Of a DNA stretch of 33,597 bases, positions 24,721-33,597 are shown one piece after another. Numbering within the stretch: position 1 is the first letter of the stretch; every line of letters begins with the position of its first letter. The position numbers and the translations under genes are program-made. The DNA is from Candidatus Berkelbacteria bacterium RIFOXYA2_FULL_43_10. GTDB taxonomy: Bacteria; Patescibacteriota; UBA1384; XYA2-FULL-43-10. The notes beneath the pieces were generated by a model. It was not told where the DNA came from. It saw only the letters and a list, made by a program, of their open reading frames with translations, and searched no databases. The DNA lies in assembly GCA_001776195.1 (NCBI GenBank), contig MEZY01000002.1, positions 1 through 33,597 on the forward strand, read 5' to 3'.

Positions 24721-27660
24721 ATGGAAAAATACAATTTCAAAAAGCTAGAAGACAAATGGCAAAAGAAGTGGGAACGATCAAGCTACGGGAAAGCCGTTGA
24801 TTTTGACAATAAGCCAAAACACTACAATTTAGTAGAATTTCCATACCCTTCCGGTGCCGGGCTCCATGTCGGCCACTGTATGGGCTATGGGGCCTCCGAC
24901 GCTTTCTCACGGATGAAGCGGATGCAGGGGTTTAATGTTATGTATCCGATGGGATGGGACGCTTTTGGGTTGCCAACCGAGAATTATGCCATAAAAACAG
25001 GCCGCAAGCCGAAAGATGTGACGGCGGAAAACATCAAAGTGTTCAAAAAGCAGATGAAGCGCCTCGCCTACTCCTTCGACTGGGATAGGGAAATTGACAC
25101 CACAGATCCAGAATACTATAAATGGACGCAGTGGATATTTTTGCAATTTTACAAGCACGCCGTTGTTGAAGGTAAGCTGATCGAGGTTGAAGATGATGAT
25201 CAAATAACCCCGCGACTCGCCTATCAAGCGGAGATGCCGATAAACTGGTGCCCATCATGCAAAATTGGCCTCGCAAATGAAGAGGTTATTGCAGGGAAAT
25301 GCGAACGATGCGGTGCAGGAACAGAACGGAAGATGCAGAAACAGTGGATGCTTAGGATCACCGAATATGCAGATAGATTGATAGACGATCTTAAAACGGT
25401 CGATTACCTTCCCCAGATAGCCACGCAACAGATAAACTGGATCGGGCGCTCGGAAGGAGCTGAAATAGATTTCAGAATACAGAATACAGAATACAGTTTA
25501 AAAGTTTTCACAACGAGGGCGGATACGCTTTATGGCGCAACATTTATGGTAGTAGCACCGGAACATATCATTATTCCGAATCTTGAATCACGAATTAGGA
25601 ATTATGAAGAGGTAAAAGAATATATTAATAACGCGAAAAAGAAGTCTGATCTGGAGAGAACGGATCTTGCAAAGGAGAAGACGGGCGTTGAAATTAAAGG
25701 CGTTAAGGCGATAAATCCCATTAATGGCGCTGAAATACCGATATTTATCGCTGACTATATCCTTGCATCATATGGCACCGGAGCGATAATGGCAGTACCC
25801 GCCCACGACGAACGAGATTACGAATTCGCAAAGAAATACGATATTCCGATCATGGAAGTGATAATCCCAACCGTCACAGATAAGCACGATCCGCCGAAAG
25901 AAGGTGTTGAGACAATATTCAGGAATGCAATTCAAGCGATTGTGATCAACCGAAAAAGCAATAAAGTCCTTATGCTTAAGTGGAAAAAGTTCCCATGGAC
26001 TACATTCGTTACTGGAGGAATTGATGGGAAAGAGGATAAAATTACAGCAGCAAAAAGAGAAGTTCTCGAGGAGACAGGCTATAAAGGCATAAATTTTATC
26101 AAATACTTGGGTGGACCCGTTGAATCTAATTTTTACGCGAATCATAAAGGAGTGAATAGAAAAGCTCATTTCTGGGGGATGGTATTCGAAATTGAAAACA
26201 ATGATAAAGATGAAATTTCTGATGAAGAGAAAGAGATACATGACGTAGAGTGGATGACTTGGGAAGAAATTGAAAAAGATAAGAATATTAAATGCGCGGA
26301 ATACGAAATATGGCTGGAGAGGCTTAAGAATGATAATCAATTATTTACGGATTGCGGTGTTCTTATTAATTCAGGTGAATTCGATGGAATGAGTTCAAAA
26401 GAGGCCGAAAATGCAATTATCAAAAAGTTGGAGAAGGACAATGCTGGCAAATCGACAGTAAATTACAAACTTCGGGATTGGATATTTTCACGTCAGCACT
26501 ATTGGGGTGAACCGATACCGATAATTCATTGTGAAAAATGTGGGACGTTGCCTATTGATGAGAAAGAATTGCCCGTGATACTGCCTGATGTTGAAGATTA
26601 TCAACCGACCAATACGGGTGAATCGCCACTATCCAATATCGATAGCTGGGTAAATATAAAGTGCCCTAAATGTGGCGAGGACGCCAAACGAGAGACCGAC
26701 ACTATGCCGAACTGGGCGGGATCGAGCTGGTACTATGCCGCGTATATCACACGCGGAAATTCGAAATCCGAATATCGAAATCCGAAAGAAGATGAAAATT
26801 TATTCAGTAAATATAAAAAAGAACTTAAGTATTGGCTTCCGGTTGATTTGTACAACGGCGGGATGGAGCATACTACCCTACACCTTCTTTATTCTCGGTT
26901 CTGGCATAAATTCTTATACGATCTCGGTTGTTTTACGACGCCAGAGCCATATAAAAAACGAATTGCGCACGGGATTATTTTGGGCGCGGACAATAGAAAA
27001 ATGAGCAAATCTTTCGGCAATGTAATTAATCCCGACGAGATTATTGATAAATACGGCGCGGACACTCTGCGAGCCTACATAATGTTTATCGGCCCATACG
27101 ACCAAGAGTCGGCTTGGAATATGAATGGGGTTTCGGGGGTATATCGTTTTATCGCAAAAGTATGGGCGAATATCGGCAAAGCAAAAGAAAATGTTGATGA
27201 CGAGCTGGGACGAGCTCTGCATAAGACCATTAAGGGGGTAAGTGATGACATCGAATGCTATTCGATGAATACTTACATCGCGAAACTAATGGAGTTTAAT
27301 AATTTAATGACTCAAAAGGATGCAATAAATTATGAAACACTCAAGATTTATGCAAAACTTTTGTCACCCGCCATACCACATCTTTCAGAAGAATTATGGG
27401 AAATTGTCGGAGAGAAAGGATCAATTTTTGAATCAAACTGGCCGGATTTCGATCAGAAATTGATAGAAGAGGAAGATCTTGTGATAGTAATTCAAATAAA
27501 CGGTAAAGTACGGGATAGATTAACGGTTAAAAGTGATATTTCAAACGCAGAACTTAAGACACTCGCGTTAAACTCCGATACCATACAACACTGGCTTTGT
27601 GGCTCTAAACCAAAAAAGATTATCGTAGTTCCCAAAAAGCTTGTGAGTATCGTAATTTGA
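24721..27660 (+). CDS. leuS: Leucyl-tRNA synthetase with an inserted Nudix hydrolase domain
   Basis: A 979-aa class I synthetase charging tRNA-Leu. HVGH (49-52) and KMSKS (760-764) are intact; a zinc ribbon is at NWCPSCKIGLANEEV...CERCG. The CP1 editing domain has TTRADTLYGATF and the aspartate block AVPAHDERDYEFAKKY, then, instead of a short linker, about 155 residues (roughly 384-540) that form a Nudix domain with a perfect Gx5Ex7REUxEExGU box (residues 432-454, REVLEETGY), before LFTDCGVLINSGEFDGMSS resumes. Two other stretches (residues near 251-259 and 680-690) are encoded by repeat-like DNA. ATG 24721 fits the family N-terminus; ATG 24697 would add eight residues and has a weak GGATAG. 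It is divergent from the GC-rich gene. Confidence 0.97.
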   Translation: MEKYNFKKLEDKWQKKWERSSYGKAVDFDNKPKHYNLVEFPYPSGAGLHVGHCMGYGASDAFSRMKRMQGFNVMYPMGWDAFGLPTENYAIKTGRKPKDVTAENIKVFKKQMKRLAYSFDWDREIDTTDPEYYKWTQWIFLQFYKHAVVEGKLIEVEDDDQITPRLAYQAEMPINWCPSCKIGLANEEVIAGKCERCGAGTERKMQKQWMLRITEYADRLIDDLKTVDYLPQIATQQINWIGRSEGAEIDFRIQNTEYSLKVFTTRADTLYGATFMVVAPEHIIIPNLESRIRNYEEVKEYINNAKKKSDLERTDLAKEKTGVEIKGVKAINPINGAEIPIFIADYILASYGTGAIMAVPAHDERDYEFAKKYDIPIMEVIIPTVTDKHDPPKEGVETIFRNAIQAIVINRKSNKVLMLKWKKFPWTTFVTGGIDGKEDKITAAKREVLEETGYKGINFIKYLGGPVESNFYANHKGVNRKAHFWGMVFEIENNDKDEISDEEKEIHDVEWMTWEEIEKDKNIKCAEYEIWLERLKNDNQLFTDCGVLINSGEFDGMSSKEAENAIIKKLEKDNAGKSTVNYKLRDWIFSRQHYWGEPIPIIHCEKCGTLPIDEKELPVILPDVEDYQPTNTGESPLSNIDSWVNIKCPKCGEDAKRETDTMPNWAGSSWYYAAYITRGNSKSEYRNPKEDENLFSKYKKELKYWLPVDLYNGGMEHTTLHLLYSRFWHKFLYDLGCFTTPEPYKKRIAHGIILGADNRKMSKSFGNVINPDEIIDKYGADTLRAYIMFIGPYDQESAWNMNGVSGVYRFIAKVWANIGKAKENVDDELGRALHKTIKGVSDDIECYSMNTYIAKLMEFNNLMTQKDAINYETLKIYAKLLSPAIPHLSEELWEIVGEKGSIFESNWPDFDQKLIEEEDLVIVIQINGKVRDRLTVKSDISNAELKTLALNSDTIQHWLCGSKPKKIIVVPKKLVSIVI
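25473..25496 (+). repeat. 7-bp tandem repeat inside leuS
   Basis: CAGAATA occurs three times in a row followed by CAG. Three 7-bp units equal seven codons, so the frame is preserved; it encodes RIQNTEYS between DF and LKVFTTRADTL in the editing domain, where other LeuRS have a variable loop. Confidence 0.8.
26758..26789 (+). repeat. Dispersed repeat inside leuS
   Basis: Two 14-bp units (TCGAAATCCGAATA and TCGAAATCCGAAAG) encode SKSEYRNPK between YITRGN and the KYWLPVDLYNGG block. The stretch matches 27 of 32 bases with the reverse complement of the intergenic repeat at 22404-22435. Confidence 0.7.
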
Positions 27661-28204: not shown

Positions 28205-28438
28205 ATGGCAGAACCAAAAAAACGGAATAACAAATCTCGGAGGGGCACAAGAAGAAGAAACATCAAAGAAGTACTACCGAAGGTAATCTATTGTTCAAAT
28301 TGTCACGAGGCAACCCTTCCGCATAAAGTCTGTAAGAATTGCGGTTATTACGGTGGAAAACTTATAATCGAGAAGCCCGAGAAAGTATCCGAGGATTTAG
28401 AAGGGGGAAAAGAAGACGTAAAAATTAAGAAGAAGTAA
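28205..28438 (+). CDS. rpmF: Ribosomal protein bL32
   Basis: A 77-aa large-subunit ribosomal protein. The basic N-terminus AEPKKRNNKSRRGTRRR is the bL32 hallmark, and a zinc-binding set C30-x2-C33, C43-x2-C46 (YCSNCHEA, CKNCGYYGG) is complete, so this is the zinc-containing form. It is about 20 residues longer than usual because of an acidic/basic tail (EDLEGGKEDVKIKKK). AAGGA 5 nt before ATG is a good ribosome site. It starts a group with nusB (1-nt gap) and rnc, coupling ribosome protein supply with rRNA transcription and processing. Confidence 0.96.
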   Translation: MAEPKKRNNKSRRGTRRRNIKEVLPKVIYCSNCHEATLPHKVCKNCGYYGGKLIIEKPEKVSEDLEGGKEDVKIKKK

Positions 28439-28439
28439 T

Positions 28440-28862
28440 ATGAACAGGCATTTATCAAGAATTGTTGCAATGCAGACCCTTTACGAATACGATTTCAGGG
28501 CCAATTCAGATCTTTCTGAAATACTTTGCAGAAATATCTCGGAGTACGAGAACAAAGTTGATGAAGAGTACGTGAGATCATTGGTTAACGGGACACTCAA
28601 AGATATAGATAGGTTCGATAAATTAATCGGAAAATCTGCTCCTGAGTGGCCAATAGATCAGATATCGGTGATAGACAAAAATATACTACGATTGGCGGCA
28701 TACGAACTTACAACCACAAATGATATCCCGGCAAAGGTGGTAATAAATGAGGCGATAGAGCTTGGCAAGCAGTTTGGTGGCGACAACTCATCGAAATTTA
28801 TAAACGGCGTATTGGGAACAATAATGGACGGCTTAGACGAGGCGAAGGAAGATGATAAGTGA
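28440..28862 (+). CDS. nusB: Transcription antitermination factor NusB
   Basis: A 140-aa all-helical protein that binds boxA RNA with NusE (S10) to allow full-length rRNA transcription. Typical blocks: SRIVAMQTLYEYDF at the N-terminus, YVRSLVNGTLKDIDRFDKLI in the middle, and SVIDKNILRLAAYELTTTNDIPAKVVINEAIELGKQFGGDNSSKFINGVLG, which is highly diagnostic at the C-terminal half. Length is normal. It begins 1 nt after the rpmF stop and its end overlaps rnc by 11 nt, so all three are translated from one message. Confidence 0.97.
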   Translation: MNRHLSRIVAMQTLYEYDFRANSDLSEILCRNISEYENKVDEEYVRSLVNGTLKDIDRFDKLIGKSAPEWPIDQISVIDKNILRLAAYELTTTNDIPAKVVINEAIELGKQFGGDNSSKFINGVLGTIMDGLDEAKEDDK

Positions 28863-29562
28863 AGACTATAAGAAATTCGAGAGCTCCCTTGGCGTAGAGT
28901 TCAATGATAAATCACTCTTGCAGATTGTATTTACTCACAGATCTTATCTCAATGAGCATAGAGGGTCAAAGCTTACTCACAATGAAAGGCTGGAATTTTT
29001 AGGTGATGCCGTGTTAGAACTTTGTACTACGGAATATTTGTATAAGAAGCTTGCAAGACCCGAAGGCGAGATGACGAATTTAAGAAGTGCAATGGTAAAG
29101 GGCGAATCGCTCTCAGAGGAAGCAAAGAGATTGGGGATGAACGATCTTATTAAAACCTCACGCGGTGAGTCAAAAAATACCGGAAAAGCTCGCGACCTAA
29201 TTTTAGCTAACGCTTTTGAGGCGCTAATTGGAGCGATATATATTGATAAAGGTTATAAGGAAGTATACAAATTTATCGAAATTAACATCGTATATAAACT
29301 TGATGATATTGTTAAGGAAGGACTCTGGTACGATCCAAAAAGTAGATTTCAAGAAATGGCCCAGGAGAGCATAGGTATTACGCCATCATACGACACATTG
29401 TCAGATACAGGTCCGGATCACAACAAAATTTTTGAAATGGGTGCCTATATTGAGCGTGATTTGGTTGGAAAGGGAAGCGGACAGTCAAAACAAAAAGCTC
29501 AATCGGAGGCCGCAAAAGATGCCTTGAGCCGTTGGGAAGAGATTTTAAAGAAATACAGTTAG
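28852..29562 (+). CDS. rnc: Ribonuclease III
   Basis: A 236-aa double-stranded-RNA endonuclease for rRNA precursor and mRNA processing. The catalytic signature HNERLEFLGDAVLEL (residues 43-57) and the second acidic site DLILANAFEALIGAIYIDKGY are intact. A C-terminal dsRNA-binding domain starts near 160 (DPKSRFQEMAQESIGITPSYD) and ends GKGSGQSKQKAQSEAAKDAL. It is complete and of standard length. Start ATG 28852 lies inside the end of nusB. Converges on dacA with a 50-nt gap that has only a weak TTAAG/CTTAA hairpin. Confidence 0.98.
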   Translation: MISEDYKKFESSLGVEFNDKSLLQIVFTHRSYLNEHRGSKLTHNERLEFLGDAVLELCTTEYLYKKLARPEGEMTNLRSAMVKGESLSEEAKRLGMNDLIKTSRGESKNTGKARDLILANAFEALIGAIYIDKGYKEVYKFIEINIVYKLDDIVKEGLWYDPKSRFQEMAQESIGITPSYDTLSDTGPDHNKIFEMGAYIERDLVGKGSGQSKQKAQSEAAKDALSRWEEILKKYS

Positions 29563-29612
29563 ATCTTTCTTCGCACTATTTTAAGTGTCTTAAGATAGAG
29601 GAAGCCGTTCTC

Positions 29613-30569
29613 TCATCTCCAGATTGTATTCGCCCAACCCCAATCTAGGAGTTTTCTTGCTTCGTCGGCCGAAGCTGGGGCAGTATCGGCGTATGTCTTT
29701 AAAATTATCGCGATTAATGTATGACCATCTCTTTCGGCAGCGCCGACAAGACAATGTCCAGATTCTGGCATATAGCCTGTTTTGACACCCAGGGCACCCA
29801 TATAATTGTACTCCCCCACCAATCTGTTTGAATTATCGAGTGGATGCGAAATCGTGCCTTCGGTGTTCGTCACGATGTATTTCGGCGTAGAAACAATATC
29901 TTTAAATAGCTTAAAATTAAGTGCGTATTTTGTAATTGTAAAGAGATCTTGAGCTGAAGAATAGCCGGATGTATCAAGCCCAGCAGGATCTTTGTATTGG
30001 GTGTCATTCATCTTAAGACGGATTGCAGTTGTATTCATAATCTCAACGAATCTGTCTACGGAGTCGGGGGAGTCAGGATCCAATTGCTCCGCCAAGGCGA
30101 GGGCGGCGTCGTTGCCGGATTTTATTAACATGCAATAAAGAAGATTTTTCACATCAATTTCTTCGCCTACGCGCAAAAATGCATCTGCGCCCGGTTGATA
30201 AGCGGCTCTCTCGCTAATTTCTGCGATATCATCTAAATTGTAATTTTCAAGAACTACTACAGCCGTCATTATCTTGGTAGTTGAGGCGATAGGCACTCTT
30301 AAATTTGAATTGTGTTTTAGAAGAACTTCTCCGCTTTCAAGATCGGCTAGCATGTATCTGTCCGCATAAATATTTGGTATTTTTGCAGAGCGCGACACAG
30401 AAGGAGTATCGACAAGCTCCGGCAAATAATAACTTGGGCTAATTGCTTGGGCCGCTAAGCTATCGCCAAATTCCTGTTTTCGTAAAGCATTATCAAATTT
30501 ATTCGATGCGGAACTAACGCCAAAAGCATTTAGTACTATTGAGAAAAAGATTATCGATTTAATTATCAT
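29613..30569 (-). CDS. dacA: D-alanyl-D-alanine carboxypeptidase (PBP5/6-like, peptidase S11)
   Basis: A 318-aa secreted serine peptidase that trims the terminal D-Ala of peptidoglycan stem peptides. A signal peptide is at residues 1-22 (IIKSIIFFSIVLNAFGVSSA). The three penicillin-binding motifs are present: S96-T-T-K99 in VPIASTTKIMTA, SGN at 151-153 in KSGNDAALALAE and KTG at 263-265 in LGVKTGYMPESGHCL. It lacks the C-terminal beta domain and amphipathic anchor of E. coli PBP5, so it ends soon after the catalytic domain. Its start overlaps the end of the pseudouridine synthase gene by 11 nt. It acts in the envelope, fitting murA and mreB elsewhere in the window. Confidence 0.95.
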   Translation of the reverse strand: MIIKSIIFFSIVLNAFGVSSASNKFDNALRKQEFGDSLAAQAISPSYYLPELVDTPSVSRSAKIPNIYADRYMLADLESGEVLLKHNSNLRVPIASTTKIMTAVVVLENYNLDDIAEISERAAYQPGADAFLRVGEEIDVKNLLYCMLIKSGNDAALALAEQLDPDSPDSVDRFVEIMNTTAIRLKMNDTQYKDPAGLDTSGYSSAQDLFTITKYALNFKLFKDIVSTPKYIVTNTEGTISHPLDNSNRLVGEYNYMGALGVKTGYMPESGHCLVGAAERDGHTLIAIILKTYADTAPASADEARKLLDWGWANTIWR

Positions 30570-31266
30570 ACTGAATTTCCCCGATACTTATCTTTTTGTA
30601 TTCTCCAGGTTTTATTTTGAGATCATTGATCTTAAGATTGGAAATCCTAATTCTTTCAAGTTTCGCGATCACAAGACCGATTTTATCACACATCTTTCTA
30701 ATTTGTCGATTGTGGCCAGTGGTAAGCACTAAGTTAACTATATGCCTGTTGCCGTCAGATTTGAGTATTTCAACATTTTTTGCTTTCATAATCACTCCGT
30801 CGATCAGCATCCCCTTAATCAACTTTGAGACGATTAGATCCTTGGATATGTCCCTTTTGGCGTAGAAGGTGACTTGATACTCTTTTTCACTTCCATGTTT
30901 AGGATGAGACAGCTTATGGGCAAAATCACCATCGTTTGTAAGTAGCATCAATCCCTCGGATTCTTTGTCAAGTCGTCCAACAGGATAAACTCTTGGCGAT
31001 TTGGGGACTAGGTCCAAGACATTTTTCCTCCCCCGCTCATCACTTGCCGTGGATATAATTCCTCTAGGTTTGTAGAGAGCGTAGATAATTTTATTCTCGG
31101 AAAGATTAACAGGACGCTCTTTAAATGTTACTTTATCGCTTTCTTCCGCAGTATCTCCAAGAACCGCAACCCGGCCATTGATTTTAATTTTCCCGTTCAA
31201 AATATGCTCATCAGCCTTTCGCCTAGAGCATACCCCTGCATCACTTAAATATTTATTAATCCTCAT
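30559..31266 (-). CDS. 16S/23S rRNA pseudouridine synthase (RsuA/RluB family)
   Basis: A 235-aa enzyme that isomerises a specific uridine in rRNA. An N-terminal S4 RNA-binding domain (MRINKYLSDAGVCSRRKADEHI...KINGRVAVLG, residues 1-45) is followed by the catalytic domain with YALYKPRGII, the catalytic aspartate in YPVGRLDKESEGLMLLTNDG and the C-terminal VNLVLTTGHNRQIRKMCDKIG. The family splits into RluB, RluE, RluF and RsuA types with different target sites; this resembles RluB most in length, but the target is not certain. ATG at 31266. It is coupled with dacA on the same strand. Confidence 0.94.
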   Translation of the reverse strand: MRINKYLSDAGVCSRRKADEHILNGKIKINGRVAVLGDTAEESDKVTFKERPVNLSENKIIYALYKPRGIISTASDERGRKNVLDLVPKSPRVYPVGRLDKESEGLMLLTNDGDFAHKLSHPKHGSEKEYQVTFYAKRDISKDLIVSKLIKGMLIDGVIMKAKNVEILKSDGNRHIVNLVLTTGHNRQIRKMCDKIGLVIAKLERIRISNLKINDLKIKPGEYKKISIGEIQYDN

Positions 31267-31336
31267 GTAACAACGCTGACTTAACTACACTGAACCATCA
31301 CTGACAAATGAATCTATTTTTTGTAACTGCGTGCGC

Positions 31337-31497
31337 CTAGAAGCTATCTCATAAATAAGTCGAGTTACATTAGATTATCGTTTCCAGGACATAACAATCA
31401 TTGATCTGTCATGCTGAATTTATTTCAGCATCTCAATGGGATTCTGAAACAAGTTCAGAATGACACGGCTTATGATGATTTATGAGATAGCTTCTAG
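31337..31497. mobile_element. MITE-like composite repeat next to aspS
   Basis: CTAGAAGCTATCTCATAAAT (31337-31356) and its exact reverse complement (31478-31497) bound a 161-bp element. Inside is a second palindromic unit, 31407-31464, starting TGTCATGCTGAA and ending TTCAGAATGACA, with a TTCAGCATCTCAATGGGATTCTGAA centre. The right end includes the aspS stop codon (31494-31496). There is no transposase. Confidence 0.72.
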
Positions 31498-32927
31498 TCG
31501 TTTGTTTCCGTGTCGGTTCTCTCTATTGCTTTATTCTTCGCCTCGCTTTTAAGGGAAATGTGGACATCATCAAGCTGTTTTTTGGACACTGGCGAAGGTG
31601 CTCCCATAAGAGGATCTTTGGCGTCTCCCGTCTTCGGGAAAGCCATTGCTTCCCTTATCACATCTTCATCGGCAAGTATTGAAGCCACTCTATCTAAGCC
31701 AGAAGCAATTCCACCGTGAGGTGGTGCACCGAATTCGAATGCTTCGAGCATATGACCGAATCGCCTATTCTTTTCCTCATGATCCACGCCCAGAAGATCG
31801 AAAATTTTATCCTGTATCTCTCTCTTGTGTATTCTAATTGATCCACCGGCAATCTCGAAACCATTTAATACTAGATCATACGAGTATGCGCGCACCTTTT
31901 CAGGTTCTGTATCAAGTTTGTCGATGTCTTCTGTGTTAGGCATAGTAAAAGGATGATGATCTGAAACTAGCTTGCCGTCAGATTTAGATCTAACAAACAC
32001 CGGCTTGTCGATAACCCAACAGAAAGCTAACTCATCGCGTTTGCTCTTGTCAGCTCTCAGATCTGGCTTGTCGCTTTTATATTTCGCGAGCGAATCATTG
32101 TATTTAACGCGTTCAAAAGGAGTCGTTTTGATCTTTTTATGAGGTAGAAGTTTTGAAATCATTTCAATCATCATATCCTCTATCAAATCCATGATATCTT
32201 CTTGATCCACAAAACTCATTTCAATATCGAGCTGTGTAAATTCCGGTTGCCTATCTCCTCGCTGATCCTCATCGCGAAAACAGCGCGCAATCTGAAAGTA
32301 TTTTTCGATGCCGCCCACCATAAGAAGTTGCTTAAATTGCTGAGGACTTTGCGGAAGAACATAAAATTCTCCCGGGTACAATCTGGATGGGACCACAAAT
32401 TCCCTGGCTCCCTCCGGGGTGGATTTTGTTAAGTATGGAGTCTCAATCTCTCTAAAATTCTTATCCCAAAGAAATTCTCTCACAAATCTAATTATTTCAT
32501 GTCTCAATGTAATGTTTCTATTCATGCGAGTAGATCGTAAATCGAGATATCGATATTTAAGTCTTAGCTCCTCATCAACTCCTTTGGTATCCTTATCTAT
32601 TTCGAATGGAGGGGTTTTTGCTTCATTGAGGATTTCGATCTCTTTAGCTTCCATTTCTACCGTACCGGTTAAAAGTTCAGTATTGACCATTTTCTCCGGT
32701 CGCCTATTTATCTTCCCCGTAATCGACACAACCCATTCCGGACGCAAACTTTCAACTTCTTTGTGAGCGCAAGATCCCGGTACAACTACAACTTGGAGGA
32801 GACCCGACATATCTCTGATATCCAAAAATACGATCTTTCCATGATCTCGTCTCTTTGAGATCCAACCCGAAATTTTGACTTCATGTCCTATGGACTTTAA
32901 CGTTTCCGATATTAATATTCGTTTCAT
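31494..32927 (-). CDS. aspS: Aspartyl-tRNA synthetase lacking the GAD domain
   Basis: A 477-aa class IIb synthetase charging tRNA-Asp. The N-terminal OB-fold is complete (GHEVKISGWISKRRDHGKIVFLDIRD). Class II motif 2 is CFRDEDQRGDRQPEFTQLDIEMSF (216-239) and motif 3 GIASGLDRVASILA; the C-terminal GAPSPVSKKQLDDVHI is bacterial-type. Bacterial AspRS normally has a GAD domain of about 120 residues between KSDKPDLR and FLWVTDFP; here KSDKPDLR (284-291) runs almost directly into FCWVIDKP (302-309), so the domain is absent. AAAGGAG before ATG 32927 overlaps the pheT stop. The stop codon lies in a repeat end. pheT precedes it by 9 nt. Confidence 0.97.
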   Translation of the reverse strand: MKRILISETLKSIGHEVKISGWISKRRDHGKIVFLDIRDMSGLLQVVVVPGSCAHKEVESLRPEWVVSITGKINRRPEKMVNTELLTGTVEMEAKEIEILNEAKTPPFEIDKDTKGVDEELRLKYRYLDLRSTRMNRNITLRHEIIRFVREFLWDKNFREIETPYLTKSTPEGAREFVVPSRLYPGEFYVLPQSPQQFKQLLMVGGIEKYFQIARCFRDEDQRGDRQPEFTQLDIEMSFVDQEDIMDLIEDMMIEMISKLLPHKKIKTTPFERVKYNDSLAKYKSDKPDLRADKSKRDELAFCWVIDKPVFVRSKSDGKLVSDHHPFTMPNTEDIDKLDTEPEKVRAYSYDLVLNGFEIAGGSIRIHKREIQDKIFDLLGVDHEEKNRRFGHMLEAFEFGAPPHGGIASGLDRVASILADEDVIREAMAFPKTGDAKDPLMGAPSPVSKKQLDDVHISLKSEAKNKAIERTDTETND

Positions 32928-32936
32928 ACTACTCCT

Positions 32937-33597
32937 TTAAAAGTCTCGCGGTTTTGCTTTATATATTTTAGTAACTGTTTTTCTTATAGCAGTAATTATT
33001 TTATCAGATTCTTCAAATTTCATCGTCGATTTCAAATCTTGGAGATAAATATGAAATGCGATATTTTTGTTCCCTTTGCCGAATTTATCAGATGGAAATT
33101 CATCGAACAGCTCAACCATCTGAATATTTTGAGAGAGTGAATAAATTGTTTTTTCAACATCTCTGACTTTGATATTTTTGTTAACAATAAAAGCCATATC
33201 GCGGACCACAGAAGGGTATTTCGATACTGTCCTAAACTTTATATCGGGAAATTTGACTTTGTATTTTATCTCTGACTTAGCAAGTCTTGAATTAGAATTA
33301 AGATCGTCTACACATAGCTCAAAATAGAAGCACTTTCTTTTTCGAATTTTAAGCATATCCTTTGTTCTTTGATCAAGCTCGGTAATTTTAGTGAGAGTAC
33401 CAGAGCGTGTTTTTTTAAGTAGTGCCTGTAATGACTTATCTAAAATACGATCGGCGTCTTTTCCGCAACAGAGTGCAGCAAGATTAAACTTTTCTCTGTT
33501 TTTCAAGAACGCGCTACCAAGCTCAAAAACAGATATTCGATCGAAAGACTGATTCTTGGATATTGTTTTGAGCAGTAATGGTATTAAGCTCGGTCTC
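32937..33597 (-). CDS. pheT: Phenylalanyl-tRNA synthetase beta subunit, C-terminal part (partial)
   Basis: The frame runs to the window edge, so about 219 C-terminal residues are present. It begins RPSLIPLLLKTISKNQSFDRISVFELGSAF, the end of the beta-subunit catalytic-like core, and finishes with the tRNA anticodon-binding FDX-ACB domain (KYPSVVRDMAFIVNKNIKVRDVEKTI...VELFDEF...KNIAFHIYLQD...KFEESDKIITAIRKTV). This subunit with PheS charges tRNA-Phe and edits tyrosine; the B3/B4 editing region is outside the window. An internal TTG at 33506 could be mistaken for a start, but open frame and homology continue upstream. It is co-transcribed with aspS. Confidence 0.95.
   Translation of the reverse strand, partial: RPSLIPLLLKTISKNQSFDRISVFELGSAFLKNREKFNLAALCCGKDADRILDKSLQALLKKTRSGTLTKITELDQRTKDMLKIRKRKCFYFELCVDDLNSNSRLAKSEIKYKVKFPDIKFRTVSKYPSVVRDMAFIVNKNIKVRDVEKTIYSLSQNIQMVELFDEFPSDKFGKGNKNIAFHIYLQDLKSTMKFEESDKIITAIRKTVTKIYKAKPRDF

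Follow-up and report, generated by a model that had tools for sequence, protein, structure and literature searches.

A Nudix domain nested in the editing domain of leucyl-tRNA synthetase of Patescibacteria, a putative hydrolase passenger

The leucyl-tRNA synthetase (LeuRS) of Candidatus Berkelbacteria bacterium RIFOXYA2_FULL_43_10 contains about 155 extra residues within its CP1 editing domain that read as a Nudix hydrolase, which raises the question of whether an essential synthetase hosts here a second complete enzyme, how such a domain reached this position and what it may act upon. The window analysed, that is, the whole stretch of 33,597 nucleotides of contig MEZY01000002.1, belongs to a genome of 0.96 Mb that is 92.5% complete. 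The leuS gene occupies in it one unbroken open reading frame of 987 codons, from ATG to stop, whose features are collected in Table 1. Residues are numbered from this first ATG unless the Met9 start is stated; judging from the alignment, Met9 (position 24721; MEKYN...), which pairs with residue 1 of T. thermophilus LeuRS, is the likelier start.

Table 1. Position of leuS and of the features of its product in the window (residues counted from the first ATG).
Feature	Residues	Coordinates	Strand	Basis
leuS, LeuRS with insertion, 987 aa		24697..27660	+	single ORF; TIGR00396; full-length AF2 and Foldseek
CP1 editing domain, first part	247-396	25435..25884	+	Pfam PF13603, profile positions 2-147 of 185
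Thr-rich editing-site motif TTRADTLYG, intact	272-280	25510..25536	+	sequence
AVPAHDERD with the conserved editing aspartate, intact	366-374	25792..25818	+	sequence; HDxRD column conserved in LeuRS alignment
Inserted segment, Nudix cassette and linkers	~393-550	~25873..26346	+	absent in insert-free LeuRS; same point in related LeuRS; AF2
Nudix domain core	411-528	25927..26280	+	Pfam PF00293, E=2.9e-16; Foldseek 2azw
Nudix box GGIDGKEDKITAAKREVLEETGY	440-462	26014..26082	+	exact GX5EX7REUXEEXGU
X-loop and subfamily signature PVESNFYANHKGVNR	474-488	26116..26160	+	FY-A-x-HK-x-x-NR conserved
CGVLINSGEFDG, editing domain resumes after the insert	553-564	26353..26388	+	alignment to T. thermophilus PGIMVNSGPFDG
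KMSKS catalytic motif, intact	768-772	26998..27012	+	sequence

The host protein is readily recognized by the bacterial leuS profile TIGR00396 (950 bits against a cut-off of 548) and has both LeuRS catalytic motifs, KMSKS and HVGH. It has in common with the bacterial enzymes (TIGR00396; T. thermophilus 1h3n/2bte, E. coli 4aq7/5omw) these motifs, the split Rossmann fold, a CP1 domain with the Thr-rich motif and HDxRD, the anticodon-binding domain and the overall fold. The aspartate of the AVPAHDERD stretch is the equivalent of E. coli D345. The AF2 model of the full-length protein (pLDDT 87.6, pTM 0.77) matches the E. coli LeuRS-tRNA structure 5omw in Foldseek with a TMt of 0.83. Apart from the extra Nudix residues, a difference is found at the KMSKS side, where T. 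thermophilus LeuRS carries a larger LeuRS-specific insertion and the window LeuRS only a short stretch.

The limits of the insert can be placed from both sides, since T. thermophilus LeuRS is alignable before and after it, with ~14 residues standing in its place, and the spacing from GTGAxMAVP to NSGxFxG amounts to ~205 residues versus ~50-70 in insert-free LeuRS. The Pfam editing-domain profile PF13603 is split by the NUDIX match (60 bits against a cut-off of 21), so that its match extends only over the first part of the domain listed in Table 1. The last U of the Nudix box is occupied by a tyrosine. The insert modeled alone (residues 385-556, with 13 related sequences) adopts a Nudix fold with a pLDDT of 89.5 and a pTM of 0.84, and its best Foldseek match is 2azw (E=6.6e-10, TMt 0.81), with RppH, ADP-ribose and Ap4A hydrolases coming next. 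In view of the two AF2 models and their structural matches, both the Nudix insert and the LeuRS around it are predicted to fold, which supports a complete Nudix fold nested within the editing domain of a LeuRS that is otherwise normal. The sequence-only reading, which had proposed a complete Nudix domain with a perfect box in the LeuRS editing domain at 25870-26340, thus agrees with the profile, modeling and fold searches in identity as well as in extent, and the residue numbers that it gave for the box (432-454) are correct from the Met9 start.

Compared with the nearest solved Nudix hydrolases (the E. faecalis MutT/nudix protein 2azw, the Ap4A hydrolases 3i7u and 4mpo, and RppH), the insert shares the fold, with a TMt of 0.78 to chain C of 3i7u, and the exact catalytic box; unlike them, it is embedded in a synthetase and shows its own signature, FYAxHKxxNR, with a sequence only ~15-25% alike. 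No intein or homing-endonuclease domain was found in the insert, in which Pfam detects NUDIX only; together with the Nudix fold of the model this speaks against an intein.

The distribution of the domain was followed with a search profile for this Nudix subfamily built from 16 inserts. Of 50 genomes from the class to which the window belongs, 13 have the domain in their LeuRS, and in this class the scores are sharply split between embedded domains (at least 169 bits) and other Nudix proteins (below 58 bits). Across the phylum, 50 of 381 genomes gave a strong match, the hosts of which, verified by BLAST and Pfam, were 48 LeuRS, one ValRS (L108) and one separate gene (L098, genome G300), with embedded domains scoring down to 74 bits; a second free-standing gene of the subfamily is present in genome G402 (L188). 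The insertion recurs in dozens of genomes, and the named relatives that carry it are Patescibacteria, Staskawiczbacteria and Taylorbacteria among them. The same profile, which readily finds Patescibacteria members, gave no match in 485 genomes (250, 200 and 35) of the phyla around a Clostridia, an Alphaproteobacteria and an Omnitrophota genome, a negative that calls for some caution. The insert is thus a member of a Nudix subfamily of Patescibacteria/CPR that resides mostly inside LeuRS.

As to the few members with other surroundings, the ValRS (L108:1771-4419, genome G195) bears its Nudix domain near the zinc module. The free gene of G300 lies within L098:4580-9968, where its neighbours are metG, tatD, an HD-domain gene and a further Nudix gene, the latter ending 4 bases before the start of leuS, and that of G402 (L188:4857-5363) is likewise near an HD-domain gene.

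Most Nudix inserts are placed at the point used in the window (site C). Others occur before the editing domain (site A; L037, L039, L042 and L183, in tandem copies in L039 and L042) or at its entrance (site B; L047 and L096), and L096 and L037 carry Nudix domains at two sites. On the tree of the LeuRS core, with the insert removed, presence at site C takes 24 changes, at least 20 of them forced by well supported branches, and members of one genus can differ, as in L070 (with) and L169 (without) or L014 (with) and L173 (without). In the Nudix tree, the inserts of sites A, B and C, the ValRS insert and the L098 gene come together, apart from the other Nudix proteins of the same genomes, the site-C insert of L113 being the exception that falls outside this group.

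The domain and its host also disagree in their degree of relatedness. The window and L034 are 64% identical in the Nudix domain and 47% in the LeuRS core, when the mean pairwise identities are 32% and 49%, respectively, and core and Nudix identities correlate weakly (rho 0.17). In AU tests on groups picked after the trees were seen, the Nudix-defined group was rejected on the LeuRS data (p=1.2e-32) and the LeuRS-defined group on the Nudix data (p=3.4e-7), part of the differences between the trees possibly stemming from the fast evolution of a short domain. This mismatch in identity and the AU rejections indicate that the Nudix domain has its own history, as a portable cassette, and its exchange between leuS genes is the direct reading of the conflicting sequence histories; the passenger appears to be acquired, dropped and traded among lineages as one piece. 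This independence of the domain from its host, like the other hydrolases in LeuRS described below, had escaped the sequence-only reading. The route may be recombination through the conserved flanks; identity along the core revealed no transferred flank much larger than the insert.

Taken together, these data are probably best accounted for by a catalytically equipped Nudix domain that travels as a portable cassette, nested in the CP1 domain of a working LeuRS and serving as a separate pyrophosphohydrolase. In this scenario lineages would acquire, lose and trade the cassette at one favoured loop, with occasional use of two further loops or of ValRS, recombination between leuS genes via their well conserved flanks being the simplest route. 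The host would keep charging and proofreading tRNA, and the passenger would act on its own as a metal-dependent pyrophosphohydrolase, by which ApnA made by the synthetase might be cleared at its source.

Domain insertion in synthetases is already known; what is new here is that hydrolases are nested in an essential one across a lineage and in exchangeable form. An IleRS with an N-acetyltransferase domain (NCBIfam NF040702, by name) represents another class I synthetase to which an enzyme domain has been added; both synthetase and domain differ from those described here. A survey of domain insertion in synthetases (PMC13114784, 2026) treats the LeuRS editing domain as an inserted module, with zero instances of it as a host; the Nudix domain described here, inserted within that module, makes a nested insertion and contradicts this. 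A full-text search of open-licence PMC papers returned no published description of Nudix in LeuRS, an absence that is weak evidence. That an essential, highly conserved translation enzyme hosts a second enzyme which is exchanged separately challenges the view of synthetases evolving as units, suggests a connection from synthetases to nucleotide clean-up (Ap4A turnover) that can be put to the test, and points to a possible way for bacteria with small genomes to keep metabolic enzymes inside genes too essential to lose.

A closer look at the X-loop following the Nudix box, which places the substrate-specific residue (PMC6856373, PMC5389931), narrows the candidate substrates. ADP-ribose pyrophosphatases have a proline 16 residues after the box (PMC6856373), NADH diphosphatases the stretch SQPWPFPxS (PMC6856373, PMC5389931) and ApnA hydrolases a conserved tyrosine (PMC5389931, PMC6856373). 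In the window the +16 position is Asn478, followed by Phe479 and Tyr480 at +17 and +18, with a proline, Pro474, at +12, and neither the window nor alignments A1 and A3 contain SQPWPFPxS. These residues exclude the ADP-ribose and NADH signatures and lean towards ApnA, to which the match is not strict: most relatives keep the aromatic pair, with mostly Phe or Tyr at +17 and no invariant Tyr, and it is the Asn and Arg of the subfamily signature FY-A-x-HK-x-x-NR that are nearly invariant. The structural neighbours of the insert include Ap4A hydrolases and RppH, with ADP-ribose, MutT and RppH types at similar scores. Ap4A is made by synthetases and degraded by Nudix enzymes (PMC10148737). A dinucleoside polyphosphate (ApnA, e.g. 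Ap4A), as a known by-product of synthetases that would be cleared where it arises, is accordingly put forward as a tentative guess, and the removal of Ap4A suggested by the sequence-only reading may be taken as a reasonable lead. A match to the HIT family was found in all 50 genomes, with and without the insert alike and with no clear pattern, which argues against a simple replacement. LeuRS is not, to our knowledge, a major producer of Ap4A.

The choice of this substrate is further affected by the other domains that LeuRS contains. At sites B-E it hosts serine hydrolase, HAD, Ham1-like and nucleotidyltransferase domains as well as domains without an assigned family, the serine hydrolase (PF06821) being found at two sites and, in a scan of 239 genomes, in the LeuRS of 13 further genomes and in one ValRS, which combines it with HAD and histidine phosphatase domains. 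None of the co-hosted serine hydrolases, HAD domains and histidine phosphatases has a link to ApnA. LeuRS is in this respect a general host, which weakens the claim of a LeuRS by-product as the Nudix substrate and makes a general carrier the strongest rival explanation: LeuRS would simply be permissive, small enzymes with unrelated metabolites as substrates being parked in surface loops of an essential, always expressed protein, and the Nudix substrate would be unrelated to aminoacylation. The two free-standing subfamily members away from leuS frames and the tolerated loss of Nudix within a genus fit this explanation. It is harder to reconcile with the recurrence of one Nudix subfamily, and not of random Nudix domains, at three LeuRS sites and in ValRS, and with LeuRS being the only large-frame host among the matches listed for the class despite the many free Nudix genes of each genome; we regard it as a real possibility, short of the probable one. 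What we do favour, by a modest degree, is a modular carrier in the sense that several surface loops of Patescibacteria LeuRS, and less often of ValRS, may take interchangeable small hydrolases (Nudix, serine hydrolase, HAD, Ham1-like, histidine phosphatase, nucleotidyltransferase) that spread from lineage to lineage as domain cassettes by recombination in an essential gene with no endonuclease of their own.

Several of these proteins are composite. The ValRS of G255 (L201:127-3957) has 1277 residues with the HAD, serine hydrolase and histidine phosphatase domains, and the 1795-residue LeuRS of G056 (L114:2177-7561) has five inserted domains: HAD and Ham1-like at the entrance of the editing domain, Nudix (box REIEEKTG) at site C, a second Ham1-like domain at site D (recognized by eye, with no Pfam match) and a nucleotidyltransferase at site E. 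Many Patescibacteria have the PF06821 domain (RBBP9/YdeN type) in their LeuRS, either at the entrance of the editing domain or behind the zinc module (L036, L042, L107, L113, L146, L148, L181, L182, L196-L200, L202-L207, L209, L210). Two kinds of inserts of ~110-130 residues with no Pfam match were seen in L149 and L150 (site C) and in L151 and L104; one such kind, with 'SNGREHIRVTL', shares site C with Nudix. A further ~167 extra residues with no Pfam match are found at site E, near residue 543, in L147 (G031).

Turning to the catalytic residues, the three glutamates and the glycine of REUxEExG are kept in 63 of the 66 embedded or subfamily domains, a count corrected by hand because the automatic pattern misplaced six domains with an intact box and missed the intact RELREEAG of L113. 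For L101/L102, the closest pair, dN/dS amounts to 0.01 in the Nudix domain as compared with 0.03 in the core, which points to selection on the Nudix domain as a protein, most likely as an enzyme. Conservation of the glutamates and strong purifying selection in this pair together suggest a maintained and probably active hydrolase, in line with the earlier remark that all metal-binding glutamates seem kept and that the domain looks active. An insert devoid of catalysis, which would only bind or stabilise, could be invoked for the three domains that have truly lost a catalytic glutamate (L085, the site-B domain of L096, and L114); against the other 63 and the dN/dS value it is an unlikely explanation for the family.

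The position of the domain inside the editing domain would also be consistent with added quality control, the Nudix domain removing misactivated aminoacyl-adenylates or helping to edit mischarged tRNA. Nudix enzymes, however, cleave diphosphate linkages, of which an aminoacyl-adenylate has none, and nearly all Nudix-bearing LeuRS retain the Thr-rich motif and the HDxRD aspartate. Editing-motif status and Nudix status are unlinked (Fisher p=0.81, with a strict pattern that undercounts by scoring TTRIDT variants as absent). The true losses of the Thr-rich motif (e.g. YNSVPQTYCAETF), upon which editing is probably defective, occur both with Nudix, at site A (L037, L039, L183), and without it (L098, L167, L172). 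Since two subfamily members are moreover separate genes, the added editing role suggested by the sequence-only reading is not supported and is unlikely, and quality control as a whole is very improbable. Equally improbable is self-protection, by which the domain would destroy nucleotide-like LeuRS inhibitors (e.g. agrocin-84-type adenylate mimics) from neighbours or hosts: among host-associated or epibiotic bacteria the domain is patchily distributed and exchangeable, much as resistance genes are, and TM84 is a known LeuRS-bound inhibitor whose structure, 3zgz, is among the Foldseek matches, but no inhibitor or producer was seen and members of this subfamily are also found in ValRS and as separate genes.

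Finally, although the genomes are metagenome-assembled, the fusion of a separate Nudix gene to leuS by assembly or binning, the frameshift or join that would have undone the original claim, is refuted by the continuous frame and by the recurrence of this junction in dozens of genomes that were assembled independently, some of them, like G024, as a single contig, and its probability is negligible. A separate irregularity was noted in L037 (4001-4988), where the tblastn match of a Taylorbacteria LeuRS begins ~1 kb before the open frame, so that a frameshift or a further insert is possible in that part of the gene. In the window, the region 3' of leuS (28205-33506) contains rpmF, nusB and rnc and, on the opposite strand, a D-Ala-D-Ala carboxypeptidase-like gene, a pseudouridine synthase gene, aspS and a partial pheT, all named from reading their translations.
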